A stretch of DNA of 51,296 bases from Clostridia bacterium (GTDB lineage: Bacteria > Bacillota > Clostridia > Oscillospirales > Acutalibacteraceae): NCBI GenBank assembly GCA_024692685.1, contig JAILMJ010000018.1, positions 1-51,296 of the forward strand, in the 5' to 3' direction. Position numbers and translations under genes: made by a program. This document shows positions 4,674 through 18,731 of this stretch, one piece after another. Under the pieces are notes generated by a model. The model had not been told where the DNA came from, searched no databases, and saw only the letters and a list, made by a program, of their open reading frames with translations. Each line of letters begins with the position of its first letter. Within the stretch, counting starts at the first letter, position 1.

Positions 4674-6239
4674 ATAGCGTGTCCGCATTTTAAAATCACA
4701 ATCAGAAACCGCATGAGTTCCTCCGCTCTTGCCGGCGCCGCTTACGCCGCGGGCGAAAAACTCTTCAGCGAATATGAACAGCGGTTTAAGGATTATACAG
4801 ATAAGAAACCCGAGGTTATGTATTCCGAAATACTTCTGCCTGCCAATGCTCCGGAAAAGTTTTATGACAGAGAGACACTCTGGAACTCCGCCGAGTCTGT
4901 TGAAACAAATTACAATTCTCAGCTTGCGAGAAATACTGTTGCCGCTCTGCCGAATGAAATTCCGAAAGAGCAGCTGCCGGAAATTGTGAGAGAATTTTGC
5001 AAAGAGCAGTTTGTGAAAAAAGGAATGTGCTGTGATTTTTCAATTCACGATAAAGGTGACGGCAACCCTCACGCGCATATTCTTCTCACTCTCAGGTCGC
5101 TGGATGAAAACGGAGAGTGGATGCCCAAGTGCAGAAAAGAATACGATCTCGATGAAAACGGAGAAAAGATTCTTCTGCCCTCAGGCGAATACAAAAGCCA
5201 CAGAGTTGATTTGACCGACTGGAACAAAAGAGAAAACTGTGAACTCTGGCGCAGCGAATGGGCGAAGGTACAGAACAGATACTATGAAAAGAATAATATT
5301 GATGTTCAGATTGATCTCCGTTCATACGAGCGCAGAGAAATTGACAAACTTCCGTCTGTTCATCTCGGACCTTACGCATCCGGTCTGGAGAAGCAGGGTG
5401 TTGAAACCGAACTCGGAAATTTCAACAGAGCCATTGAGGAACACAACAAAGAAAAAATGACTCTGCTTGAATTAATCGGTAAGATTAAATCGGTCATTTC
5501 GGAAATTGCCGATAAGCTTCGCAGGCTCAGAACAAATTCAGTCAAAGAACCTACACTTACGGAAATACTTATCGATTATCTTGAAATCCGCAAGAGCGGG
5601 AGAAGCGACTGGGGATTTTATGCTAAAAGAAACTGCGCGATAAAAGATCTCAAGGAAGTTTCAGCGGCTATAGTATTTCTGAGCAATAACAATCTGAGGA
5701 CCGTCAAAGATCTCAGACGGATAATAGATTCCGCAGACGAAAAGGAAAAGATTCGCAAAGAGATGAAAGACACAAAACAGATTATTCTGAAACTCAGGGA
5801 TATTTATGATACCGAGGAAACTTACGGCAAGTATCTGAAATCATTTTTCAAAGACGGTTACTACAAAACCCATAAGGAACAGATTGACAGATACCGTAAA
5901 GCCGAAAAATATCTTAAGAGCCGCGGTTACGATTCGCTGACAAATATTGAGCCGTTTGAAGCAGAATATGACCGGCTCAAGGCTGAATACAAATCATTCG
6001 GAGATGATGTTCCCGAAAAGAACAGCGATAAATACAAAGAAATGTATCGCATCAGCAGAATTGTTTCCACCGTTCTTGACGATATGGGTATTCAGTCCGA
6101 CAGCGCCCAGCCGGAGAAGAAAAGGGAATCCGTGCTTGACCGCTTGGAGAAAAATAAGAAAAAAGTAAAAGAAAATGAAACTCTGGATAAAAACCGAGTT
6201 TCACAGAAAAATCATAAAACAAATAAAGAATTGAGGTGA
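4674..6239 (+). CDS. mobA: MobA/MobL-family (MOBQ) relaxase, apparent AUA start
   Basis: The relaxase that should nick oriT and lead the strand during mobilization. The family N-terminus ACPHFKIT is encoded from 4677, upstream of the first ATG (4713). The only codon in start position is ATA at 4674, 9 bases after AAGGAG; an in-frame stop lies further upstream. Counting from there, the probable catalytic Tyr is residue 24 (GAAYAAGEKL) and the metal-binding HUH-like histidines are in GNPHAHILL (133 and 135). About residues 1-240 are the relaxase domain and the rest is a long charged coiled coil. Starting at 4713 would remove the first beta strand. Either AUA is used poorly or the gene has lost its start. 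Confidence 0.85.
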   Translation: MACPHFKITIRNRMSSSALAGAAYAAGEKLFSEYEQRFKDYTDKKPEVMYSEILLPANAPEKFYDRETLWNSAESVETNYNSQLARNTVAALPNEIPKEQLPEIVREFCKEQFVKKGMCCDFSIHDKGDGNPHAHILLTLRSLDENGEWMPKCRKEYDLDENGEKILLPSGEYKSHRVDLTDWNKRENCELWRSEWAKVQNRYYEKNNIDVQIDLRSYERREIDKLPSVHLGPYASGLEKQGVETELGNFNRAIEEHNKEKMTLLELIGKIKSVISEIADKLRRLRTNSVKEPTLTEILIDYLEIRKSGRSDWGFYAKRNCAIKDLKEVSAAIVFLSNNNLRTVKDLRRIIDSADEKEKIRKEMKDTKQIILKLRDIYDTEETYGKYLKSFFKDGYYKTHKEQIDRYRKAEKYLKSRGYDSLTNIEPFEAEYDRLKAEYKSFGDDVPEKNSDKYKEMYRISRIVSTVLDDMGIQSDSAQPEKKRESVLDRLEKNKKKVKENETLDKNRVSQKNHKTNKELR

Positions 6240-6285
6240 TATTACGGATAATACATCAAGAGAATCGGTCCAGATTCAAGAGGTA

Positions 6286-6447
6286 ATGAACGCAAAAGAT
6301 ATTGCAGCTTATCTCAAGATATCTGTTTCGCAGGCTTATGCCTTACTTTCATCAGAATCTTTTCCGACTCTGCATATTGGCAACAGAAAACTTGTCACAT
6401 TGAATAACCTGAACGAATGGATGTTGAAGAATACTAATGTAATATAA
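6286..6447 (+). CDS. Excisionase-like helix-turn-helix protein (HTH_17/MerR-like fold)
   Basis: A 53-residue protein. AKDIAAYLKISVSQAYALL is a typical winged-HTH recognition segment, followed by FPTLHIGNRKLV and a closing helix LNEWML. The shape is that of small excisionases and plasmid DNA-binding proteins that assist tyrosine integrases. It lies between the relaxase and the integrase, as expected for Xis. The ATG at 6286 has AAGAGG only 2 bases away; an in-frame ATT at 6241 after GAGGTG is an alternative start that would add 15 residues. Confidence 0.75.
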   Translation: MNAKDIAAYLKISVSQAYALLSSESFPTLHIGNRKLVTLNNLNEWMLKNTNVI

Positions 6448-6563
6448 AATATAACGAATGCTTGTACTGTTGCTGTTAATATGATAAAATAAATGTGCCA
6501 TCATTCAAGAGGTGGCGCAAGTCAGCAGGCACTTGCAAATTAAAAACGGAAGGAGCAATGTCT

Positions 6564-7676
6564 ATGGCAAAACGCCGCTCCAACGGTGAGGGTCATTTCA
6601 AAAAGCACCCGAACGGTAAGTGGGAGTGGCAAGTTATGATAGGCCGTGATAAAAACGGCAAGCCAATAAGAAGGAGTTTTTATGCATTAACAAAAAAAGA
6701 AGCAAGAAGATTAGGCGAAGATTATATTGAGGAATACGGAAACGGATCAGGGAATCTAAACGGCTTTATATCATTTTCCGAGTGGGCAGACAAATGGTAT
6801 GCCTACATTGAAGGAACCGTTACAATTACAACCTATGAGAGTTATAAATATACTCTCAGAATACTCAAAGATTATTTCAAGGATACTCCAATCTGCGAAA
6901 TAAAAGCGATTGACATTGAAACAATGCTCAAAACAATGGCGATTGAAGGCAAGTCAACTTCTTACACTTCAAAAATACGCGGTATGCTTCACCAGATTTT
7001 CAGAAAAGCGGAAGCGAATGAAATGATAAGCAGAAACCCGGTCGCTTTAGCCGACAGACTCAGAAGACCCAGACAGCTCGGTGATGAAGAGGTCGCAAAG
7101 AAAGATTCGTTCACTGCAGATGAAATATTCAGATTGAATAAATATCTGCCGGATGACCGCGTAGGCTGGAGCATAAGACTGATGCTCGGAACCGGTATGA
7201 GAACCCAGGAACTTCTCGCGTTGCAGCCTGAGCACATAGCGCTTGACGGTTCGTGGATAAATATCCACCAAGCGGTGGTTATGCATAAAGGAACTGCTGT
7301 AATCGGTCCTACAAAAACAAAGGAAAGTTACAGAACAATCCCCGTCCCGCCGAATCTGCGCAAATACGCTGTCAAGATGCGAAATACCGACAGGGAGTTC
7401 TGCTGGTACGGCACAAAAACGCCGTTTATTAATCCGAGCACATTCCGGGATTATTTCAAAGAAGCCCTGGAAGAAATCGGCGGAGTAAGAATACTAACTC
7501 CACACTGCTGCAGACATACATATGTGTCTCAGTTGCAGTCGCAAGGAGTTGACATTGAAACGATTATGGCTATGACCGGTCACACGAAACTGCAGACTAC
7601 AGAAAGATATCTGCATGTTCAGAGTGAAACCAAGGATAATGCCGTTGCCCAACTCAATGTATTATTTGCTTCTTAA
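6564..7676 (+). CDS. int: Tyrosine recombinase / site-specific integrase
   Basis: A 370-residue phage-type integrase. An N-terminal arm-binding domain (1-58, basic, GKWEWQVMIGRD) precedes a core-binding SAM-like domain (about 68-165) and the catalytic domain. The active-site residues are Arg213 (GMRTQELL), probably Lys252, His314 and Arg317 (HCCRH), His340 (GHT) and Tyr349 (ERYLH). AGGAG lies 8 bases before the second ATG (6564), preferred over the ATG at 6558 (2 bases) and an upstream GTG. Two hairpins precede it (GTGCCA/TGGCGC at 6495-6518 and GCAAGT/ACTTGC just after). It points at the tRNA-Ala gene 165 bp downstream, its likely target. Confidence 0.92.
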   Translation: MAKRRSNGEGHFKKHPNGKWEWQVMIGRDKNGKPIRRSFYALTKKEARRLGEDYIEEYGNGSGNLNGFISFSEWADKWYAYIEGTVTITTYESYKYTLRILKDYFKDTPICEIKAIDIETMLKTMAIEGKSTSYTSKIRGMLHQIFRKAEANEMISRNPVALADRLRRPRQLGDEEVAKKDSFTADEIFRLNKYLPDDRVGWSIRLMLGTGMRTQELLALQPEHIALDGSWINIHQAVVMHKGTAVIGPTKTKESYRTIPVPPNLRKYAVKMRNTDREFCWYGTKTPFINPSTFRDYFKEALEEIGGVRILTPHCCRHTYVSQLQSQGVDIETIMAMTGHTKLQTTERYLHVQSETKDNAVAQLNVLFAS

Positions 7677-7723
7677 TGGAATTATTGCTTCTGATTGTAA
7701 AATTAAATAGATAATGTACCCAT

Positions 7724-7757
7724 AATAATTGCAGTAAAACGCAAAATAATTGCAGTA
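7724..7757. repeat. Two 13-bp direct repeats between int and tRNA (probable arm-type integrase sites)
   Basis: AATAATTGCAGTA occurs at 7724-7736 and again at 7745-7757, exactly 21 bp apart, about two helical turns. Short phased repeats between an integrase gene and its tRNA target are the usual form of arm-type integrase binding sites, so this is probably part of the right attachment site. Confidence 0.6.
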
Positions 7758-7841
7758 CAGACACAGAGAGCGCTTGAAAGGCAGCCAAAAGAGAAAACCC
7801 GCAAACCCTTTATATACAAGGATTTACGGATTATCTGAGAC

Positions 7842-7917
<76 letters not shown>

Positions 7918-9702: not shown

Positions 9703-9759
9703 AATTATTAATTCCTTTCAATTATTTCATTTTTTCTTTTTTCTGACAACAAACTCTTT

Positions 9760-9801
9760 TTATTCGGCGCGAATGCGCCAGCTCTTCGACATAATAACCA
9801 T
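9760..9801 (-). CDS. Leader peptide upstream of trpB2 (one Trp codon, internal hairpin)
   Basis: Thirteen codons (MVIMSKSWRIRAE) with a strong GGAGG 7 bases before ATG, 57 bp ahead of trpB2. The Trp codon lies at the base of a perfect hairpin inside the ORF (GGCGC/GCGCC around ATTC). A ribosome paused at Trp would keep that hairpin open. No T-run follows, so classical termination is not visible. A role in trpB2 control is inferred from position and composition. I see no promoter I would defend in the gap. Confidence 0.5.
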   Translation of the reverse strand: MVIMSKSWRIRAE

Positions 9802-9852
9802 AAGTTTTCCTCCGTTGCAATTTGTTTATTCAAAGAATACGTTGCGCAAAGG

Positions 9853-10290
9853 TCAACGGTTCTCAAAATACGATTTCAATGATTTTATTGCGAGGGAATA
9901 ACCCTCAAAGCCGTAACCGGCGAAGGTTTTTATACAAGCCATTCCGGCGTAGGAAATCTGCCTGAATTCTTCCCTTTTCGTGATATCCGACAGGTGGACC
10001 TCAACCGCGGGCAGATTGACCGCTTTAAGAGCGTCATATATAGCAATACTGGTATGGGTGTAAGCGGCGGGATTTATGACAATACCGTCAAATATACCGT
10101 ATGCGGACTGGATTTTATCAACTATATCACCCTCGTGATTGGACTGAAAGCATTCAACTTCGTCGCCGCCTGAGCCGGCTTCCTTTTTTATGTATTCGAG
10201 GAGGTCTTTATAAGAGCCGTTACCGTAAATGCCGGGCTCTCTTATGCCGAGCATATTGATATTCGGCCCGTTTATAACAAGTATTTTCAT
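9853..10290 (-). CDS. aroQ: 3-dehydroquinate dehydratase, type II
   Basis: A 145-residue enzyme converting 3-dehydroquinate to 3-dehydroshikimate, step 3 of the shikimate pathway. Type II features are clear: NGPNINMLGIREPGIYG with the catalytic Tyr22, a SNHEGDIVD stretch, INPAAYTHTS with the key His, and VEVHLSDITKREEFR. The length is normal for this dodecameric class. Its ATG overlaps the aroE/K stop by 4 bp (ATGA), so translation is coupled. It is the last gene of the aro operon. Confidence 0.96.
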   Translation of the reverse strand: MKILVINGPNINMLGIREPGIYGNGSYKDLLEYIKKEAGSGGDEVECFQSNHEGDIVDKIQSAYGIFDGIVINPAAYTHTSIAIYDALKAVNLPAVEVHLSDITKREEFRQISYAGMACIKTFAGYGFEGYSLAIKSLKSYFENR

Positions 10291-11519
10291 CTTTCAAGCC
10301 TCCCGACTGTTCTGATAACTTCCGAAGCAACCGTTTCAGGCGATGAATCCGACCTGACTGTTACATCTGAAAATTTGCGATAAAGAAGGTCTCTTTTCTT
10401 GAAAAGCGCTTTAATTCCCTCGGCTTTGGTTATAGGTCTTCCGTCATCCGGCAGAGAATTCAAATCTCTGTCAAGCCTGATAATAATACCGTTCTGATGA
10501 AGGCAGGGGTAGTTTCTTTCAACCGTAACCGCCCCGCCTCCGGTAGCAATGACTGCGCCGGACTGTTTACCGAAATCCGAAAGAACTTCGCTTTCAAGTT
10601 TTCGGAAGGACGGCTCCCCTTCTTCCGTTATTATCTGAGCCGGTGTTTTTCCAGTTCTGTTTTTGATTTCTTCATCGGAATCAAGGACCTGTCTGCCGCT
10701 TATTCTGCCGATTTCACGGGCTACCGTTGTTTTTCCGCAACCCGGCATTCCTATGAGCACGATGTTTTCACTCGCCGCTGCCAGTTCAGTATGTATCTGA
10801 GATACAACCCGGTCGTCTATTGCTTTGCCGGTAAAGAGCTCCGCGCTTTTCTGGGCCTGGGCAACAAGCATATACAGACCGTTTTCACAGGGAATTTTCA
10901 ATTTCTCCGCCTGCATCAGCAATGCCGTTCTGCACGGATTATAAATCAGATCTATTACTCCTTCACAATGCGGAAAAAGGCTGAGGTCAACGGGTGACCG
11001 ACCGTTATCCGGATACATACCTACGGGTGTTGTATTAACTATAAACCGAGCGTCGCTGTGAAGCCGGAGGTTATCATAATTATTTTCCCCGGTCCTGCTT
11101 ATCACAACATAAGGCGAACCTATATTTTCGAGAGCCGCTCTTACGGCGCTTGAAGCGCCGCCGCTTCCGAGCACGAGGGTTTTTTTGCCCTTCATTCTCA
11201 TACCGCTTTTTTTCACAAGCTCAGTAAAGCCCGCAACATCGGTATTGCAGCCCTTGATTTCACCGCCTGAAGTTCTGACTACAGTATTTACGCTTCCGGT
11301 TTTTTCGGCCGTTTCACTCAGAGAGTCCATAAAAGGAATAACGGATTTTTTATACGGAACCGTAACATTAAGTCCGTCCCAGACATCACTTCTCAGAAAG
11401 CCTCCTATATCCTCCTCCTGCATTTCAAAGAGTTTATATGAATAATCCCCGAGACGCTTATGAATCTGCGGCGAATAGCTGTGGCCGAGTTTTTTACCTA
11501 TCAGTCCGCACCGAAGCAT
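10287..11519 (-). CDS. aroE/aroK: Fused shikimate dehydrogenase - shikimate kinase
   Basis: A 410-residue bifunctional protein. Residues 1-245 are AroE (dehydroshikimate to shikimate with NADPH): SYSPQIH for shikimate binding, NVTVPYK with catalytic Lys57, NTD (92-94) with catalytic Asp, and the LGSGGASSAV nucleotide loop (118-126). Residues 250-410 are AroK (shikimate to shikimate 3-phosphate with ATP): P-loop GMPGCGKT (257-264), then DSDEEI, the FRKLE region and the GGGAV motif. The two domains are joined without a long linker. The start is the ATG at 11519 (GLIGKKLGHS), one base after the pheA stop and preceded by GAGG inside pheA; longer upstream starts have no conserved sequence. Ends in a 4-bp overlap with aroQ. 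Confidence 0.95.
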   Translation of the reverse strand: MLRCGLIGKKLGHSYSPQIHKRLGDYSYKLFEMQEEDIGGFLRSDVWDGLNVTVPYKKSVIPFMDSLSETAEKTGSVNTVVRTSGGEIKGCNTDVAGFTELVKKSGMRMKGKKTLVLGSGGASSAVRAALENIGSPYVVISRTGENNYDNLRLHSDARFIVNTTPVGMYPDNGRSPVDLSLFPHCEGVIDLIYNPCRTALLMQAEKLKIPCENGLYMLVAQAQKSAELFTGKAIDDRVVSQIHTELAAASENIVLIGMPGCGKTTVAREIGRISGRQVLDSDEEIKNRTGKTPAQIITEEGEPSFRKLESEVLSDFGKQSGAVIATGGGAVTVERNYPCLHQNGIIIRLDRDLNSLPDDGRPITKAEGIKALFKKRDLLYRKFSDVTVRSDSSPETVASEVIRTVGRLER

Positions 11520-11520
11520 A

Positions 11521-12663
11521 TCAGAATACCTCGCTGTAACTGCCGAGATAGTTGAAACTTTCGCAGGCATCCGGCAATTCTCCGAGAAGCTGAATAAGCT
11601 CCGGCGAATATACCGGTGTATCAAGGTCAAAATAGAACATGAACTCAAATTCCCTGCCCGGCAGAGGACGGCTTTCAAGTTTATTCAGGTTTATTCCGAG
11701 AGCATAAAATCTTGACAGCAATTTATAAAGCGAACCCTGCTCGTGAGGAAGAGTCAGCATAATACTGGTTTTATCTGCGCCCGGGTATATTTCCATATTC
11801 TTTGATATACATATAAAGCGGGTGTAATTGTTATCGTTATTCTGAACGGAATCTCTGATACTTTCGAGGCCGTAATACTTGGTGCACTGTTTTGAAGCAA
11901 GGGCTGCGATATCCGGCCTGTCAGACTCGGAAACCATCTTTGCCGCAGAGGCGGTATTCTCACAGGGAATAACTCTCACTCCCTTCAGAGATGAAAGAAA
12001 TTCCGAACTCTGGGCAATGGCCTGTTCGTGAGAATATATCTCTTTTATATCCTCAATTTTCGTGCCCGGCTTTGCAAGCAGGTTGTGCTCAATTTTAATT
12101 CTGATGCTTCTAACAATATTGAAGTGATGGTTTATCATCAGGTCATAAACCGAATTTACCGAACCCGCGTAACTGTTTTCAACGGGAATAATACCGTAAC
12201 GGCAAAGGCCTTTTTCTATTGCAGAGAATACCGATTTGAAATCCGAGAAAAACATTATATTGGCATTACGCATAAGCTTTTCACAGGCAAACTGCGAATT
12301 GGCGCCTTCCACGCCCTGGCAGGCAACGCTTGCTCTGTCCGGAAACAGTTTGGGAGTGTTTTCAATTGCCGCCTGAATTTTATCCGTAAGTTCAGTGGTA
12401 TGATGAATGAGACGATTCTGATAACTGCGGCTAAGCTCCATAATAAGCGAGAAAAGAAGATATGAATAATCTCTTATATTTTCCGGGGAATTCTCCACAA
12501 CCGAATTGATTTTTTCTTTTTCTCTTTTTAAATCGAGAACAGGGATATTATTGGCTTTTTTGAATTGTGCTATCGCTGCGCTGACATCCATTCTTTCGGA
12601 AAAAAGATTTAATAATTCCTTGTCAATTGAATCAATCTGCTTACGGCAGTCTTCTATTTTCAT
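11521..12663 (-). CDS. pheA: Bifunctional chorismate mutase / prephenate dehydratase with ACT domain
   Basis: A 380-residue P-protein that makes phenylpyruvate from chorismate. Residues 1-85 are an AroQ-type chorismate mutase (IDSIDKELLNLFSERM, then DLKREKE). About 108-285 are the prephenate dehydratase domain (GVEGANSQFACEKL; IIPVENSYAGSVNSVYDLM; a TRF-like YTRFICIS). About 295-380 are an ACT domain with GSLYKLLSRF and the ESRP phenylalanine-binding motif, so feedback inhibition by phenylalanine is expected. AAAGGAG sits 7 bases before ATG, overlapping the end of aroC. It also supplies prephenate to TyrA encoded in the same operon. Confidence 0.95.
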   Translation of the reverse strand: MKIEDCRKQIDSIDKELLNLFSERMDVSAAIAQFKKANNIPVLDLKREKEKINSVVENSPENIRDYSYLLFSLIMELSRSYQNRLIHHTTELTDKIQAAIENTPKLFPDRASVACQGVEGANSQFACEKLMRNANIMFFSDFKSVFSAIEKGLCRYGIIPVENSYAGSVNSVYDLMINHHFNIVRSIRIKIEHNLLAKPGTKIEDIKEIYSHEQAIAQSSEFLSSLKGVRVIPCENTASAAKMVSESDRPDIAALASKQCTKYYGLESIRDSVQNNDNNYTRFICISKNMEIYPGADKTSIMLTLPHEQGSLYKLLSRFYALGINLNKLESRPLPGREFEFMFYFDLDTPVYSPELIQLLGELPDACESFNYLGSYSEVF

Positions 12664-12667
12664 ATTT

Positions 12668-13729
12668 TCACTCCTTTACCGATAACGCATCATAAACCGC
12701 AAGTGCCGCGGCCGCTTCAACACAGGGCACCGCTCTGGGAACAATACAGGGATCGTGGCGGCCTTTAATAACTATTTCCGTATCCCTGCCGTCTGAAAGA
12801 TCCACACTGTTCTGCTTAATTGCTATTGACGGCGTCGGCTTAACGGCAACCCTGAATGTCAGAGGCATACCGTTTGTTATTCCGCCTAGTATTCCTCCGC
12901 AGTTGTTTGTGCGTGTTTTCACCACACCGTCGCTGAAATAAAACTCGTCATTGTTTTCACTTCCGAACATCGCGGCAACTCCGAAACCCGCTCCGAATTC
13001 TATGCCCTTGACAGCCGGAATACCGAAAACCGCTTTGGAAATTCTGTTTTCCATTCCGTCAAAAACGGGATCGCCGATACCTGCCGGAATACCTGTGACA
13101 GCGCATTCAATAATACCGCCTACCGAATCTCCTTTTTCTTTTACTTCGGCTATGAGTTCCTGCATCCCTTCCCCTTGCTTATCATCAACAACGGGAAACG
13201 GTTTGCCGCCTGTGCTGCTTTCGAGTGTGCCGTTATCCATGACATTGCCTATCGAGAAAATTCTGGAAATAACCGAAATGCCTTTCTTTTCCAGCAAATC
13301 CTTGCAAATACCGCCCGCGATACACAGCGGAGCCGTAAGTCTGCCCGAAAAGTGGCCGCCCCCCGCTGCGTCCTGATAACCCGAATACTTTATCTGCGCG
13401 GTGTAATCCGCATGGCCGGGACGGGGAATATTCTTTATATTATCGTAATCCTGCGAACGGACATCGGTGTTGCGGATAATTGCCGTAATCGGAGTGCCGC
13501 AGGTAACACAGTCATCATTTAATCCGGATAAAAATTCGGGAATATCCGCCTCTTTTCGGGATGTTGACCAGGCTGCTCTGCCCGGCGCTCTTCTTTCGAG
13601 GAAACGTAAAAGGGCATCCAAATTGATTTTTTCGCCCGCCGGTATTCCTTCAAGAGTCATACCTATAGCCGGAGAATGAGACTGGCCGAAAACCGTCAGT
13701 CTTATATTTTCACCGTAACTGCTGCTCAC
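12668..13729 (-). CDS. aroC: Chorismate synthase
   Basis: A 353-residue FMN-dependent enzyme that removes phosphate from EPSP to give chorismate, the last common step. Family signatures are present: SYGENIRLTVFGQSHSPAIG at the N-terminus, RPGHADYTAQIKY with GGGHFSGR, RTNNCGGILGGITNG and the C-terminal RHDPCIVPRAVPCVEAAAAL. The length is typical for the short bacterial form. The start overlaps the aroA stop by 4 bp. Confidence 0.97.
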   Translation of the reverse strand: MSSSYGENIRLTVFGQSHSPAIGMTLEGIPAGEKINLDALLRFLERRAPGRAAWSTSRKEADIPEFLSGLNDDCVTCGTPITAIIRNTDVRSQDYDNIKNIPRPGHADYTAQIKYSGYQDAAGGGHFSGRLTAPLCIAGGICKDLLEKKGISVISRIFSIGNVMDNGTLESSTGGKPFPVVDDKQGEGMQELIAEVKEKGDSVGGIIECAVTGIPAGIGDPVFDGMENRISKAVFGIPAVKGIEFGAGFGVAAMFGSENNDEFYFSDGVVKTRTNNCGGILGGITNGMPLTFRVAVKPTPSIAIKQNSVDLSDGRDTEIVIKGRHDPCIVPRAVPCVEAAAALAVYDALSVKE

Positions 13730-14979
13730 ACCTCTGCCTCCAGACTTTCAAATTCTTCCCAAAATCCGGGAAATGATTTTGCCGTACAATCCGCATTGAG
13801 GATTTCAATTTTTCCTTTGCTGAAGAAGGAAAGTAATGCTGCCGCCATTGCAATTCTGTGGTCGCCGTAAGAATTGACTGTGCCTCCGTTTATTACGGGC
13901 TTACCGTAAATAAGCAGACCGTCATCCTTCTCAATCGCCTGCGCTCCAACTCCGTTAAGCATTTCCGAAACAGCGCTCAGTCTGTCAGACTCCTTGAAAC
14001 GCAGCCTTGAAGCGTTCGTGATTTCCGTTATACCGTTTGCTCCGGCAGCCAGAGCGGCTATGACAGGAACAAGGTCGGGAACATTGCGTGCGTCCACTGT
14101 ACAGGCGTTGAGTTGGCCTTTGCTGACATTTATGTCATTCCCCGTTACTTCAACTTTTGCGCCGAAAGCTCTGAGAATATCCGTTATCCTTCTGTCACCT
14201 TGAACGGATGAGATATTCAAATCTCTGACGGTTATACCCTTTTCCGACAGCGCGCCCATACACAGGAAAAACGAAGCGCCTGACCAATCGCGCTCAACTT
14301 TATAGCATTCCGGCGCGCGATATGATTGATTGCCGTAAATCAGATATCCATTATTTTTCTTTTCAAATTTAATACCGGAAAGCTTTATCATCTCTTCAGT
14401 CATTTTTATATAATCCAATGATTCCGTTGAACCGGTTATATTGATTTCGCTGTCACCCGGGAGCAGAGGCAGGGCAAACAGCAGTCCCGATATAAACTGC
14501 GAGGAAACATCTCCGGGCACTGTGTAACTTCCCGGTCTCAGTCTGCCCGAACATTTGAGAAGCGAGCCGTTTTTTTCGATACTCACACCGTTTTGCTCCA
14601 AGGCGTTTACCAATCCGTAAACCGGACGCCCGGGAAGTCTGCCTCTCATATTGAATACCGTTTCTCCTCCGATGGCGGCGGCAACGGGAAGCAGAAATCT
14701 GAGGGTGGAGCCGCTTTCGCCGCAATCGGTGTATCTGACGGTGTCCGTAAGCGGCTGAATACATCCGGCGGTGATTCTGTTATTGCCGAAAACTGTTTTT
14801 GCTCCAAGGGCATTCAGACAGTCAACTGTTGCGGAAATGTCATCCGGAAGACCCTCACACAAAATCGTGTTTTTTCCCTCTGTCAGAGCAGCGCATATCA
14901 GCGCTCTGTGAGCATAGGATTTTGAGGAAGGAACAGTTACCTGACCGCATCTGCGCGAAGACTTGATTTCATAATTCAT
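13726..14979 (-). CDS. aroA: 3-phosphoshikimate 1-carboxyvinyltransferase (EPSP synthase)
   Basis: A 417-residue enzyme adding PEP to shikimate 3-phosphate. Signatures: VPSSKSYAHRAL with the catalytic Lys (residue 20), ESGSTLRFLLP, the SRLRFKESDRL motif and GDHRIAMAAAL near the C-terminus. The ATG at 14979 has GGAGG 6 bases upstream and overlaps the aroB stop as ATGA; an upstream in-frame ATG at 15003 would add eight non-conserved residues. Residue ESGST in place of the class I L-F-LGNAGTA motif suggests a class II-like active site, which is often less glyphosate-sensitive; this is inference. Confidence 0.95.
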   Translation of the reverse strand: MNYEIKSSRRCGQVTVPSSKSYAHRALICAALTEGKNTILCEGLPDDISATVDCLNALGAKTVFGNNRITAGCIQPLTDTVRYTDCGESGSTLRFLLPVAAAIGGETVFNMRGRLPGRPVYGLVNALEQNGVSIEKNGSLLKCSGRLRPGSYTVPGDVSSQFISGLLFALPLLPGDSEINITGSTESLDYIKMTEEMIKLSGIKFEKKNNGYLIYGNQSYRAPECYKVERDWSGASFFLCMGALSEKGITVRDLNISSVQGDRRITDILRAFGAKVEVTGNDINVSKGQLNACTVDARNVPDLVPVIAALAAGANGITEITNASRLRFKESDRLSAVSEMLNGVGAQAIEKDDGLLIYGKPVINGGTVNSYGDHRIAMAAALLSFFSKGKIEILNADCTAKSFPGFWEEFESLEAEV

Positions 14980-16034
14980 TTCAGGCCTCCTGCAGTAAGC
15001 CATGTAATAACTTCGTTTCTTTTTACCGTTGTTATTTTACAGCTGCAAAAACCGTCGGCTGTAACAATTCTGAGGTCATCGCCCGCGCTTTTTTTATCGT
15101 TCATCGCCGCATTTGCAACATCCGCTGCAGTAAACGGCATTTCAGCCGGCAAACCGTATTGCTCCAGGAGCTTAAGAAGCTTATCATAAACATCGCCGCC
15201 GCACAGGCCCTTGTTTACACAGGCCTTAACCATCACAGCCATCCCCATGGCAACGGCTTTGCCGTGGGAAATCGTATAGCCGCTGAGAGCTTCGGCGGAA
15301 TGCCCGAAGGTATGACCGAAATTAAGGAACATACGGCAACCGGTGTCAAACTCATCCTTTTCCACATAATCGCGTTTCATGGAAACGCAGGTAAAAATCA
15401 CATTTTCATATTGCTCGGAAACCGGGATTTCAGATATTGACCCGAACAGTTTCCTGTTGCCTATCATTGCGTATTTTATTATTTCCGCACAGCCGTTTGA
15501 ATACTCCTCCGGCGGCAGGGTTGAGAGGGTGTTCGTATCACAAATCACAACATCGGGCTGGTGAAAACAGCCAACCTGATTTTTGCCGTTATCAAGGTCA
15601 ATTCCGGTTTTTCCGCCGACCGACGAATCAACAGCGGCAAGGAGGGAAGTCGGAATCTGGACAAAGGATATTCCCCTTTGATAGGTTGCGGCGGCAAAGC
15701 CCGCAAGATCTCCCACAACTCCTCCGCCGAGAGCTATCACGGTATCGCTTCTCGTCAGCTTTTCAGAGCACATTCTGTTTACAAGTTCGCCGTAAACGGA
15801 AAGACATTTTGAACTTTCACCGTGCGGAAAAACAAAGTCAACAACCTTGATTCCTTCACGGGAAAGACTGTCGGCAAGTATTGCGCCGTAAATGGGAAAA
15901 ACATTGTCATCGGAGACTATAACCGCCGTTTTCGGCTTTACAGTCCGGGCAATAATCCCGCCCGACTCACGGAGCAGACCGGCACCGATCAAAATATCAT
16001 ATTTTTTTGAAGAATTGACCGTAACTTTCCGCAT
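14976..16034 (-). CDS. aroB: 3-dehydroquinate synthase
   Basis: A 352-residue NAD and metal-dependent cyclase converting DAHP to 3-dehydroquinate. Motifs: ALGGGVVGDLAGFAA (101-115) for NAD, PTSLLAAVDSSVGGKTG (128-144), EIIKYAMI and NFGHTFGHSAEA supplying metal-binding histidines. The ATG lies immediately after the tyrA stop. The gene overlaps aroA by 4 bp. Confidence 0.96.
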   Translation of the reverse strand: MRKVTVNSSKKYDILIGAGLLRESGGIIARTVKPKTAVIVSDDNVFPIYGAILADSLSREGIKVVDFVFPHGESSKCLSVYGELVNRMCSEKLTRSDTVIALGGGVVGDLAGFAAATYQRGISFVQIPTSLLAAVDSSVGGKTGIDLDNGKNQVGCFHQPDVVICDTNTLSTLPPEEYSNGCAEIIKYAMIGNRKLFGSISEIPVSEQYENVIFTCVSMKRDYVEKDEFDTGCRMFLNFGHTFGHSAEALSGYTISHGKAVAMGMAVMVKACVNKGLCGGDVYDKLLKLLEQYGLPAEMPFTAADVANAAMNDKKSAGDDLRIVTADGFCSCKITTVKRNEVITWLTAGGLK

Positions 16035-16865
16035 TTATCCGTCAACCTCTTTTTTAATCCTGCTGCCCTGTTCCAGAAGGTCAATGAGTTTTTCCGTATC
16101 TGAGCTTTCAAGGGCATCTTTATATGAATTCAGGTTTTCTATCAGGTTTTTTATTTCAAAAATCAGATTATCCTTATTTGCCATAAACAGTTCCGCCCAC
16201 ATTTCAGGGTTGAGCCGCGCTACTCTCGTAAGGTCATTGTAGCTTCCGGCGGAAACTCCTGTGTGCTTTTTCACGGTCGGGCTTTTGACAAATGCATTGG
16301 AAACCACATGAGCAAGCTGTGAGGTATAAGCTATTATTTCATCGTGCTCATTTGCAGTGGTAACTGTGATTCTTGAAAAACCAGCAGGAGTGAGCAATTC
16401 TTTTATCCTGTTCAGAATGGCAACGTCGTCATATACCGGTGGAACGATAACCATAGGCGCCCTGACAAACATATTTTCTTTTGAATATTTGTAGCCCGAA
16501 TACTGTGTTCCCGCCATAGGATGGCCTCCGGCGAATGTAAACCCGTATTTTTTCGCGGCTGCCATTCCTCTGCTGACAACTTCTTTTTTTATTCCGCAGC
16601 AGTCAATGACAACAGGCCTTCCGCCTATGTATTTACCGTTTGTTTCCATATATTCCGCAGCCGCTTCGGGGTAAGTGCAGATGAGAACCAAATCGCAGGT
16701 TCCGACATTTTTATCTGTCAGTTTTTCGCTGACAATACCGTCGATTATCGCAAATTTCAGTATTGAGTCATCAGTGTCAGCGGCAATAACCGTATGGCCT
16801 GCTTTATGATACGCCTTTGCGAAGGATCCGCCTATAAGGCCAAGCCCTACGATACCGACTTTCAT
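16035..16865 (-). CDS. tyrA: Prephenate dehydrogenase
   Basis: A 276-residue NAD(P)-dependent enzyme making 4-hydroxyphenylpyruvate from prephenate for tyrosine. The Rossmann loop GLGLIGGS is at 7-14. Substrate-site stretches are GGHPMAGTQYSGY and the helical TSQLAHVVSNAFV. There is no fused chorismate mutase and no ACT domain, so tyrosine control probably acts elsewhere. Its ATG shares one base with the aroF stop (TGATG), implying coupled translation. Confidence 0.94.
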   Translation of the reverse strand: MKVGIVGLGLIGGSFAKAYHKAGHTVIAADTDDSILKFAIIDGIVSEKLTDKNVGTCDLVLICTYPEAAAEYMETNGKYIGGRPVVIDCCGIKKEVVSRGMAAAKKYGFTFAGGHPMAGTQYSGYKYSKENMFVRAPMVIVPPVYDDVAILNRIKELLTPAGFSRITVTTANEHDEIIAYTSQLAHVVSNAFVKSPTVKKHTGVSAGSYNDLTRVARLNPEMWAELFMANKDNLIFEIKNLIENLNSYKDALESSDTEKLIDLLEQGSRIKKEVDG

Positions 16866-17863
16866 CAGATTACACCTCTGATTGCTTCAACTTTTCTGAC
16901 GAGCTCCGCATATTCTTCCGGGCGGAGTGATTGTGCTCCGTCGCAAAGGGCGTGAGGAGGATCGTTATGAACCTCTATAATCAATCCGTCACAGCCGCAC
17001 GCCGTTGCCGCCATTGCCATGGGAGAAACCATACGGGCAATTCCGGTAGCGTGACTGGGATCCACAATAACGGGAAGATGAGAAAGCTCGTGAAGCATGG
17101 GAACCGCAGCAAGATCAAGCGTGTTTCTCAGGTAGTCGCTGTAAGTCCTGATTCCTCTTTCGCAAAGGATTACATTTTCATTGCCGCTCGCCATAATATA
17201 CTCAGCGCTCATAAGCAATTCCTTGAGCGTATTGGCGAGACCTCGTTTAAGAAGAATCGGCTTGCCTGTGCGTCCGAGTTCCTTAAGGAGGTCAAAGTTC
17301 TGCATATTTCTCGCGCCGACCTGAAGGACATCTATATCTTCAAAGAGCGGAAGATCCGAAACACTCATTATCTCGGTAACAATGGGTAACCCGGTTTCTT
17401 TTCTGGCAATTTTCAGAAGTTCAATGCCTTCACCTTTAAGTCCCTGGAAATCATAGGGGGAAGTTCTCGGCTTGAAGGCACCGCCTCTGAGAAGATTCGC
17501 ACCTGCCTCTTTGACGGCTTTGGCAACATATACTATCTGCTCTTCATTCTCAACCGAGCAGGGTCCTGCTATCAGAGCAAAGTTGCCGCCGCCTATTTTC
17601 ACATCCCCGACACTTATTATGGTATCGTCGGGATGAAACTTCCTGTTGCAGCATTTGAAAGTTTCAGTTACTCTTTTTACCGATTCAACTATATCAAGAC
17701 TTTCTATAAGATCGGTATCGACCTTTGTTGTGTCTCCGATAAGACCGAGGACTGTCTGATATGCACCGGTGGAAATATGAACGCCGAGGCCCATATCCTT
17801 GAACCAGTCAATAAGCTGACTTTGTTTTTCATCCTGAGTTCCCTGTTTTAATACAACAATCAT
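16865..17863 (-). CDS. aroF: 3-deoxy-7-phosphoheptulonate (DAHP) synthase, AroF/type I-beta
   Basis: A 332-residue enzyme committing PEP and erythrose 4-phosphate to the shikimate pathway. Residues 1-70 form the ferredoxin-like (FL) regulatory domain typical of this subgroup. The barrel follows, with AGPCSVE (99-105), RGGAFKPRTSP (126-136), LLKRGLANT, LCERGIRTY and VIVDPSHATG. The FL domain is where aromatic amino acids usually inhibit related enzymes. It is the first gene of the operon, about 33 bp after an attenuator-like terminator that follows an aromatic-rich leader peptide. Confidence 0.96.
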   Translation of the reverse strand: MIVVLKQGTQDEKQSQLIDWFKDMGLGVHISTGAYQTVLGLIGDTTKVDTDLIESLDIVESVKRVTETFKCCNRKFHPDDTIISVGDVKIGGGNFALIAGPCSVENEEQIVYVAKAVKEAGANLLRGGAFKPRTSPYDFQGLKGEGIELLKIARKETGLPIVTEIMSVSDLPLFEDIDVLQVGARNMQNFDLLKELGRTGKPILLKRGLANTLKELLMSAEYIMASGNENVILCERGIRTYSDYLRNTLDLAAVPMLHELSHLPVIVDPSHATGIARMVSPMAMAATACGCDGLIIEVHNDPPHALCDGAQSLRPEEYAELVRKVEAIRGVI

Positions 17864-17895
17864 TTGTCTACCTTCTTTTCAGTGATTTCAAATAT

Positions 17896-17929
17896 AAAAA
17901 GTGCGGCACAGGGTAATCTGTGTCGCACT
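17896..17929 (-). terminator. Attenuator terminator of the aro operon leader
   Basis: On the minus strand GTGCG-A-CACAG and CTGTG-C-CGCAC pair as two 5-bp blocks around an internal mismatch, closing on a loop of ATTACC, and are followed at once by five T. It lies between the leader peptide and aroF, within the same transcript, so it must be read through for the operon to be expressed. Confidence 0.85.
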
Positions 17930-17954
17930 CAACTTATGAACCGATTATCATAAA

Positions 17955-18044
17955 TTATTTGCACCGCAAATTGACCCTACTATTTTCAATAGTAAAGTAA
18001 AAGCCATACCAGAAATATTCAACGGTGCAATTGTATGTGGCCAT
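17955..18044 (-). CDS. Aromatic-rich leader peptide controlling the aro operon
   Basis: A 29-codon ORF with GGGAG 8 bases before ATG. Its middle reads EYFWYGFYF, so seven of nine codons are for Phe, Tyr or Trp, and an earlier Tyr is at residue 4. An ACTATT/AATAGT hairpin with loop GAA begins a few codons after this cluster. TTGCACCG near the start of the ORF (18023-18030 on the complement) can pair fully with CGGTGCAA near its end (17959-17966). A terminator follows, then aroF. This is the classical layout of a ribosome-mediated attenuator that senses charged tRNA-Phe, -Tyr and -Trp. An exact antiterminator was not resolved by eye. Confidence 0.85.
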   Translation of the reverse strand: MATYNCTVEYFWYGFYFTIENSRVNLRCK

Positions 18045-18079
18045 TTGTTTTCTCCCTTAAACCAAATCCCGGAAAGAAC

Positions 18080-18107
18080 TTGATAATTCCCGAAAAAGTG
18101 GTAAAAT
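18080..18107 (+). promoter_or_regulatory. Probable bioY promoter, interleaved with the aro promoter
   Basis: TTGATA (18080-18085) and TAAAAT (18102-18107) are 16 bp apart on the plus strand. Initiation near 18114 would fall between the -10 boxes of the two opposing promoters, so the two transcription units overlap at their 5' ends and may interfere. No BirA operator of the usual GTTAAC type was seen. Confidence 0.5.
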
Positions 18108-18124
18108 GCTAAGTAATTGTCAGT

Positions 18125-18153
18125 AGAATAGCACTTTTTTCGCAACTTGTCAA
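18125..18153 (-). promoter_or_regulatory. Promoter of the aro operon
   Basis: On the minus strand TTGACA (18148-18153) and TATTCT (18125-18130) are 17 bp apart, a near-consensus sigma-A promoter. Transcription would begin near 18118, about 75 bases before the leader peptide start. Confidence 0.75.
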
Positions 18154-18182
18154 TACCGAAAAAGAAAAACGGAGAAAAAATA

Positions 18183-18731
18183 ATGAGCAAAACGCAAACA
18201 AATCTGAAAAGTCTGAGTCAGATAGCTGTCACCGGCGCCTTTCTCGCAATATGTGCACAGATAGCTGTTCCGGCTCCCGTTCCGTTTACCATGCAAACCT
18301 TCGGAATATTCACAGCCCTTAAACTGCTGGGAGGAAAAAAAGGAACAGTTTCCATATTCATATATATTCTTCTCGGCGCTTTCGGCGCCCCTGTTTTTGC
18401 TTCATTCAGAGGCGGAGGAGGAGTCCTTGCGGGTCCGACGGGCGGATACATTGCAGGCTTTCTTATTACGGGATTGCTTTATCTGGCCTTTGAAAAAATT
18501 TGTAAAAACAGCATTTCAAAAAACATCGTGCTTGCCGCAGGCCTTGCGCTATGCTATCTTTTCGGCACTGTATGGTATGCGCACGTGCTTGGTTCAAGAG
18601 GAGAAACCGTTATATTTACCCAAGCTCTTCTCACCTGCGTAGTTCCCTATCTTATTCCCGACGCGCTTAAACTTGCGCTGTCGGAAGTTCTGTGCAGAAG
18701 GCTTAAAAAAATATCATACTTCAAAAACTGA
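18183..18731 (+). CDS. bioY: Biotin transporter BioY (ECF substrate-binding subunit)
   Basis: A 182-residue integral membrane protein with about six hydrophobic segments. The family motif region VPAPVPFTMQTFG (residues 24-37) and the Gly-rich GAFGAPVFASFRGGGGVLAGPTGGY loop are characteristic of BioY, which binds biotin and works with the shared ECF energizing module. The ATG at 18183 follows CGGAG at 8 bases; upstream in-frame starts lie inside the promoter region. No bioM/bioN genes are adjacent. Confidence 0.94.
   Translation: MSKTQTNLKSLSQIAVTGAFLAICAQIAVPAPVPFTMQTFGIFTALKLLGGKKGTVSIFIYILLGAFGAPVFASFRGGGGVLAGPTGGYIAGFLITGLLYLAFEKICKNSISKNIVLAAGLALCYLFGTVWYAHVLGSRGETVIFTQALLTCVVPYLIPDALKLALSEVLCRRLKKISYFKN

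Follow-up and report, generated by a model that had tools for sequence, protein, structure and literature searches.

What controls an operon that carries the full shikimate, phenylalanine and tyrosine gene set in a member of the Clostridia? The question is raised by a short leader in front of aroF on the 51,296-nucleotide contig analysed here (JAILMJ010000018.1 of assembly GCA_024692685.1; hereafter the window). Classical attenuators such as the trp, his and pheA leaders combine an ORF containing codons for the end product with a sensor (1:2), an antiterminator (2:3) and a terminator (3:4) helix. T-boxes also sense the supply of charged tRNA and act at a terminator; they bind tRNA directly and need no ORF. 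An earlier note, made from the sequence alone, had proposed a ribosome-mediated attenuator that would respond to a shortage of any of the three aromatic amino acids. Our analysis makes it highly probable that the leader is a ribosome-mediated transcription attenuator, gating aroF-tyrA-aroB-aroA-aroC-pheA-aroEK-aroQ according to how much charged tRNA-Phe and tRNA-Tyr is available.

The promoter, ribosome binding site, 29-codon ORF with the run EYFWYGFYF, long-range pairing, terminator and aroF named in the earlier note are all present in the window, on the minus strand. A sigma-70-like promoter (18125-18153) consists of TTGACA (18153-18148), a 17 nt spacer and TATTCT (18130-18125), with 10 of 12 matches and a TG before the -10 element. 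The ribosome binding site AAGGGAG (18052-18058) lies 7 nt before the ATG at 18044 of a leader ORF of 29 codons plus TAA (MATYNCTVEYFWYGFYFTIENSRVNLRCK, 17955-18044, TAA at 17957-17955). Judged by sequence, the locus has the start, Shine-Dalgarno (SD) motif and stop of the short translated ORF that belongs to a ribosome-mediated attenuator. The sensor codons EYFWYGFYF occupy 17994-18020 inside this ORF. Immediately 5' of the aromatic codons, TTGCACCG (18023-18030) forms the 5' arm of a helix, P1, whose 3' arm CGGTGCAA (17959-17966) lies at the end of the ORF. A second helix, P2, pairs ACTTTACTATT (17998-17988) with AATAGTAGGGT (17984-17974). This is the ACTATT/AATAGT hairpin that had been placed just after the aromatic codons; it is present, but extends over 11 bp and its 5' arm contains the last two of these codons. 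P1 and the hairpin both belong to the switch proposed earlier, which missed a further strand, AGGGTCAATTTG (17967-17978). This antiterminator strand, recognised from the comparison of relatives, overlaps the P2 3' arm, abuts the P1 3' arm and pairs (17978-17967 with 17920-17910) with CAGATTACCCT, the upper 5' arm and loop of the terminator. Between the leader ORF and the first gene follow a small AU-rich hairpin predicted in the window fold (TTTATGA/TCATAAG, 17933-17954) and an intrinsic terminator, with a stem-loop AGTGCGACACAGATTACCCTGTGCCGCACT (17900-17929, from fold and comparison) and a U-tract (17890-17900, from the sequence), 36 nt before aroF. The minimum free energy of the leader had a z-score of -4.1, and none of 200 shuffles was equally stable.

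The first gene, aroF (16865-17863), encodes a DAHP synthase (NF006421, TIGR01361). Profile matches identify the remaining genes on the same strand (9853-16865) as tyrA, aroB, aroA, aroC, pheA, a fused aroE-aroK and aroQ, with pheA encoding a chorismate mutase-prephenate dehydratase, and the operon holds the full shikimate, Phe and Tyr set including both tyrA and pheA. The fusion is seen at 10287-11678, where shikimate dehydrogenase and shikimate kinase matches fall within a single ORF. Divergent from the leader promoter, a BioY-family gene is found on the plus strand (18147-18731); its mechanically assigned start at 18147 falls in the -35 region, and the ATG near 18183, which has an SD motif, looks likelier. 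On the other side of the operon, a MobA/MobL relaxase and a phage-type integrase adjoin a tRNA-Ala (GGC, 7842-7917) within 4713-7917, a possible boundary of an integrated mobile element neighbouring the aro operon. The AroF protein shares 84-86% identity with L018, from a different genus of the same family, and with L046, and at most 67% with members of its own genus, of which 28 of 45 genomes gave no match. Being closer to L018 and L046 than to its own genus, the AroF sequence suggests that the operon was acquired by transfer or replacement.

Conservation of the leader ORF was examined upstream of aroF in three sets of relatives that share some species. AroF searches matched 17 of 45 genomes of the genus, 199 of 300 of the family and 109 of 148 of the class. 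The family set comprised the 44 best-scoring genus and family loci (no more than 30 from either search), including the window and leaving out the partial hit L017. The named set was drawn from the best 80 loci among named genomes, of which 77 were kept after L086, L112 and L119 were excluded for short upstream DNA, and the class set of 89 combined 29 loci with 60 upstream regions hand-picked for spread over families. We defined a leader as an ORF with an ATG start, at most 60 codons, a position within 350 nt of aroF and at least 6 aromatic residues in 10 codons. By this rule, a leader was found in 41 of the 44 best-scoring family loci, 66 of the 77 named-genome loci and 44 of the 89 class loci, while 45 of the latter had none. 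The reverse strand of the same regions yielded 0, 0 and 1 leaders, respectively, and 2.7%, 0.8% and 1.0% of shuffles passed the rule. Reading frame matters as well, since the aromatic fraction of the leaders fell from 0.35 in frame to 0.13 and 0.15 when the other two frames were read. An SD-like motif preceded 79 of 149 leader starts compared with 53 of 593 further ATGs found in these regions; the remaining 70 leaders had none by the rule used. The device is widespread, with at least one leader by rule in 26 of the 45 class families sampled, and leader plus terminator in 24 once L135 and L220, whose leaders lack a good terminator, are removed. The operon behind it is conserved too: of the 57 named loci whose downstream sequence reached 7.9 kb or more, 38 had all eight genes from aroF to aroQ in this order, and a TrpB-like gene came next after aroQ in 4 of those 38. 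By their record titles, many of the named relatives derive from rumen or gut samples. Three contigs titled Thermoguttaceae (L058), Treponema (L071) and Kiritimatiellae (L125) carry the same AroF and leader-like ORFs, that of L071 starting with TTG, and are perhaps misbinned contigs of metagenome-assembled genomes.

A run of codons for the end products of the operon is a further hallmark of such an attenuator, and here the leaders are enriched in Phe and Tyr, and not in Trp. Phe and Tyr together made up 351 of 1000 residues in the leaders found in the family set, 547 of 1574 in the named set and 453 of 1509 in the class set (30-35%). The corresponding numbers for Trp were 2, 11 and 14 residues (0.2-0.9%), and any Trp at all was present in 2 of 41, 9 of 66 and 13 of 44 leaders. 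Because the leader rule scores Trp as aromatic, it does not select against Trp. Searches for TrpA and for the chorismate-binding domain gave no match in the window's own genome, which is 91% complete, and each of these searches matched in 14 of 14 control genomes. The organism is, on these profile matches, likely a Trp auxotroph, perhaps with indole salvage by a TrpB-like enzyme, and extra chorismate would not yield Trp by the usual route. Since the leaders are rich in Phe and Tyr and poor in Trp, and since the TrpA and chorismate-binding matches are missing from this genome, the leader appears best described as a Phe/Tyr sensor, and the response to any of the three aromatic amino acids that had been proposed is not supported.

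That version, in which the same attenuator is a true three-way sensor for Phe, Tyr and Trp, is in our assessment unlikely. It draws on the Trp codon in the window's run, which is common to the three near relatives L047, L048 and L049, on the 13 class leaders that hold Trp, and on a second flavour of leader from other families in which Trp recurs, e.g. SWGYFYFSTGYFFCKK in L177. The overall scarcity of Trp speaks against it, as do the leaders of L018, L046 and L050, which contain no Trp although their AroF is equally close or closer to that of the window. The missing TrpA and chorismate-binding matches point the same way, and so does the TrpB-like gene, which has its own T-box in 9 of 19 family relatives scanned (none was seen in the window). 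The single Trp codon of the window could also stall a ribosome and is probably incidental to a Phe/Tyr sensor.

In the window, the TrpB-like gene begins 150 nt after the operon and has its own promoter-like site. The intervening region (9703-9852, minus strand) contains a second short ORF, MVIMSKSWRIRAE, with a strong SD motif and one Trp codon, as well as a small GC-rich palindrome, in the place that the T-box takes in those 9 of 19 family relatives. By eye, an ORF in L239 (MKIMSERWQTK...) faintly resembles it.

We then turned to the RNA structure, where an attenuator should show an antiterminator that excludes the terminator and covaries. Among the 121 usable loci of L001-L125, 112 had a leader under the criteria used here (at least 5 aromatic residues in 10 codons, within 600 nt). 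Five of these (L052, L053, L056, L067 and L106), whose ORF or terminator was seemingly misassigned, were removed by hand, and the remaining 107 were reduced to 94 by removal of near-duplicates. In L106, the cultured relative Aminicella lysinilytica DSM 28287, the ORF of the leader is clear and it was the terminator that could not be assigned properly. From the class set, 42 of 44 leaders had a terminator of -9 kcal/mol or lower (L135 and L220 were dropped), and 38 of them, none close to the first set, entered the comparison after removal of four near-duplicates. In this swap test, the duplex energy of each leader's own strands is compared with that of strands exchanged between leaders. The antiterminator is built from different sequences in different relatives, as in L046 (AGGTTAATTTG/CAGATTAACCT), L098 (AGCGATTTGTG/CACAGAATCGCT) and L093 (AGTGATTTC/GAAATCACT), and from unrelated ones elsewhere, for instance CCTTTGAGCCTG/CAGGTTCAAAGG in L175. 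For the 94 leaders, the mean antiterminator duplex energy was -17.2 for own strands and -12.5 for swapped ones (z -15.2). P1 (z -9.1), P2 (z -10.8) and the terminator arms (z -31.7) also preferred their own partners, and control segments not expected to pair gave a z of -1.1. The 38 class leaders behaved likewise, with z-scores of -12.1 for the antiterminator, -10.5 for P1 and 0.0 for the control; for the 23 of them with unrelated terminator sequences, the antiterminator still reached -8.2 (control -0.8). The picture is less clear for single leaders, with the own antiterminator partner ranking within the best 10% for 53 of 94. The window's antiterminator strand is not specific, as 11 of the 94 terminators pair better with it than its own.

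Covariation was measured in an alignment of 20 of 22 near relatives that were hand-chosen for resemblance, with the structure written from row L046; L072 (a near-duplicate) and L062 (terminator seemingly misassigned) were left out. Across this alignment, 95% of the antiterminator cells were paired. Double-sided changes affected 6 of its 11 pairs, and its covariation of 0.307 exceeded that of shuffled alignments (0.208; 0 of 500 as high). Versions of the antiterminator slid along the alignment were paired in at most 52% of cells. Terminator and P2 together were paired in 89% of cells with a covariation of 0.266 (shuffled 0.157; 0 of 500 as high). Their double-sided changes comprised 5 pairs, all in the terminator and none in P2, which was not above shuffles (99 of 500 as high). 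The window's leader thus contains an antiterminator that is mutually exclusive with the terminator and covaries in this alignment. Both the aromatic codons and the alternative helices, whose alignment in relatives had been suggested as a check on attenuation of the whole aro operon, proved to be conserved, and with them that part of the earlier proposal is supported.

The two helices described earlier, P1 and the hairpin, were considered as the whole switch and rejected. In the predicted fold, TTGCACCG/CGGTGCAA and the hairpin both coexist with the terminator, which leaves antitermination unexplained by these two helices alone. A hand-worked pairing between P1 arms and terminator arms was dropped because the comparison could do without it.

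With the antiterminator included, a mechanism can be proposed. When both charged tRNAs are plentiful, the ribosome would reach the end of the leader ORF and cover the antiterminator strand (17967-17978), which allows the terminator to form. Under shortage of either one, it would stall within EYFWYGFYF and break both P2, whose 5' arm holds aromatic codons, and P1, whose 5' arm lies just upstream. The freed strand would then pair with the 17910-17920 segment as this emerges, ahead of the terminator 3' arm, and RNA polymerase would read into aroF. Translation of the leader, the stalling, its timing and the read-through are what we infer from these arrangements.

Ribosome positions were modelled by folding solely the stretch of RNA from the downstream edge of the ribosome to the terminator loop. 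The mean antiterminator fraction of the 94 leaders was 0.31 without a ribosome, 0.75 with a ribosome stalled in the middle of the run and 0.38 with a ribosome at the stop codon; the 42 class leaders gave 0.41, 0.72 and 0.24. With a margin of 0.05, the mid-run stall raised the fraction over that of free RNA in 114 of 136 leaders and lowered it in none, and compared with the stop position it was higher in 120 of 136 and lower in 6. Stalling at the second codon also raised the fraction, to 0.54 (94 leaders) and 0.67 (42 leaders), which means that the model does not single out the aromatic codons. In case of the window, the values were 0.71 without a ribosome, 0.74 for the mid-run stall and 0.33 at the stop. 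As its free RNA is already at 0.71, P1 and P2 alone do not block its antiterminator, and the model predicts that in the window the operon is shut solely by a ribosome at the end of the ORF. Once the transcript is complete, equilibrium favours the terminator whatever the modelled state (means 0.81-0.96). The switch must consequently be kinetic and be decided during transcription.

A stalled ribosome could also arise in another way, by a nascent peptide that arrests it through its sequence and answers a free metabolite instead of a lack of charged tRNA; TnaC is a precedent. The flanking residues that recur in several families by eye, e.g. AGY..CKK, would fit such an arrest peptide, but they are encoded where the arms of P1, P2 and the antiterminator lie, an overlap that would account for their recurrence, and the aromatic run itself varies in order and length (by eye). 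We regard arrest by the peptide as very unlikely and retain charged-tRNA supply as the probable signal.

An altogether different possibility is that the leader acts as a T-box, a metabolite riboswitch or a protein-bound, TRAP-like element in which the ORF is incidental. T-boxes are no strangers to these bacteria: the window's own genome has nine matches, five of them over the curated cut-off, and the genes behind them include pheS, valS, cysS, alaS and thrS (by eye from translations). Among 40 class aroF loci scanned, a T-box in sense orientation occurred in 6, all among the 28 without a leader. The earlier note's remark that Firmicutes more often control aromatic genes by T-box was therefore a fair one. 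In the window, the T-box model (RF00230) had no match at the gathering score, and the sole Rfam match at that score was a tRNA, leaving none in the leader. None of the 12 scanned class loci with a leader had a T-box, and a conserved start, SD motif and aromatic run would be unexpected for an incidental ORF. On these Rfam scans and the features of the ORF, this explanation is extremely improbable for the window, and the ribosome-mediated attenuator is kept. The distribution (0 of 12 with leader, 6 of 28 without) implies that the two devices appear to alternate at aroF.

The attenuator resembles the classical ones in its leader ORF with product codons, its competing helices and the terminator just before the first gene. 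It differs in responding, as proposed, to two amino acids at the common first step of a whole shikimate operon, in hosts where T-boxes are common, and in an antiterminator that contacts the upper 5' arm and loop of the terminator. T-box leaders (RF00230), for their part, are found at aroF in some class relatives.

Devices of this kind are in print. A figure legend in PMC6429828 (2019), which screened five genomes (HIMB5, C. novyi, T. lienii, Arcobacter and Baumannia), lists candidate upstream ORFs (uORFs) containing F and Y for genes of shikimate metabolism. These likewise contain Phe and Tyr codons and are probably the same kind of device; in the text compared, that paper names no antiterminator, range or codon counts. 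The uORFC-13-1 motif of PMC8632094 (2021), for which attenuation was proposed, similarly places a uORF, a terminator and a further helix 5' of aroF in Acholeplasma. By its description it differs in being confined to Acholeplasma and environmental sequences, with 24 representatives and at least one Phe codon, and the section on it reports neither a Tyr run nor an antiterminator. Other Firmicutes attenuators, namely the histidine leader of hisS/hisZ in bacilli (passages of PMC2965389) and a leucine-rich attenuator peptide of S. aureus (PMC5794164), concern other amino acids and genes. Passages of PMC11109978 mention neither phenylalanine nor tyrosine, and those of PMC1262725 and PMC2494555 deal with Actinobacteria and T-boxes, respectively. 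Leader-peptide attenuation is mostly known from Proteobacteria and Actinobacteria and T-boxes from Firmicutes (in part after passages of PMC2965389). In the literature searched, the running text of non-subscription journals, we found no Phe/Tyr aroF leader from these bacteria, nor a distribution in the class, a Phe/Tyr specificity by count or this antiterminator. The leader is a well-supported example of a kind of device already known, with an unusually broad range.

We lean towards the broader view that ribosome sensing of both Phe and Tyr is the standard way in which shikimate operons are controlled across much of the class, that it swaps with T-boxes, and that Trp is left out because it is watched elsewhere, by the T-box on the TrpB-like gene in relatives. 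A single leader-peptide switch, strongly covarying and with an RNA of two definable states, would thereby cover nearly all of the best-scoring family loci and about half of the class families sampled. These leaders form a natural set for studying the sensing of two amino acids by one leader and the exchange between leader peptides and T-boxes at one gene, and the switch would give a role to many short ORFs before aroF.

Two further observations concern the codons themselves. Six Phe/Tyr codons in a row were sought in the window's own genome and gave 8 matches, compared with 22 for a backward-pattern control, and none of the 8 looked by eye to be part of an obvious leader. Since the run of the window itself falls outside the six-codon pattern, the scan would miss similar leaders. 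The second flavour of aroF leader was seen in L162, L164, L176, L177, L178, L185, L191 and L194, with recurrent Trp in all except L191. These leaders have an AGY..CKK-like tail, and L162, L176, L177, L178 and L191 have the terminator motif CTCAT in common. Trp may be relevant in these leaders of other class families.
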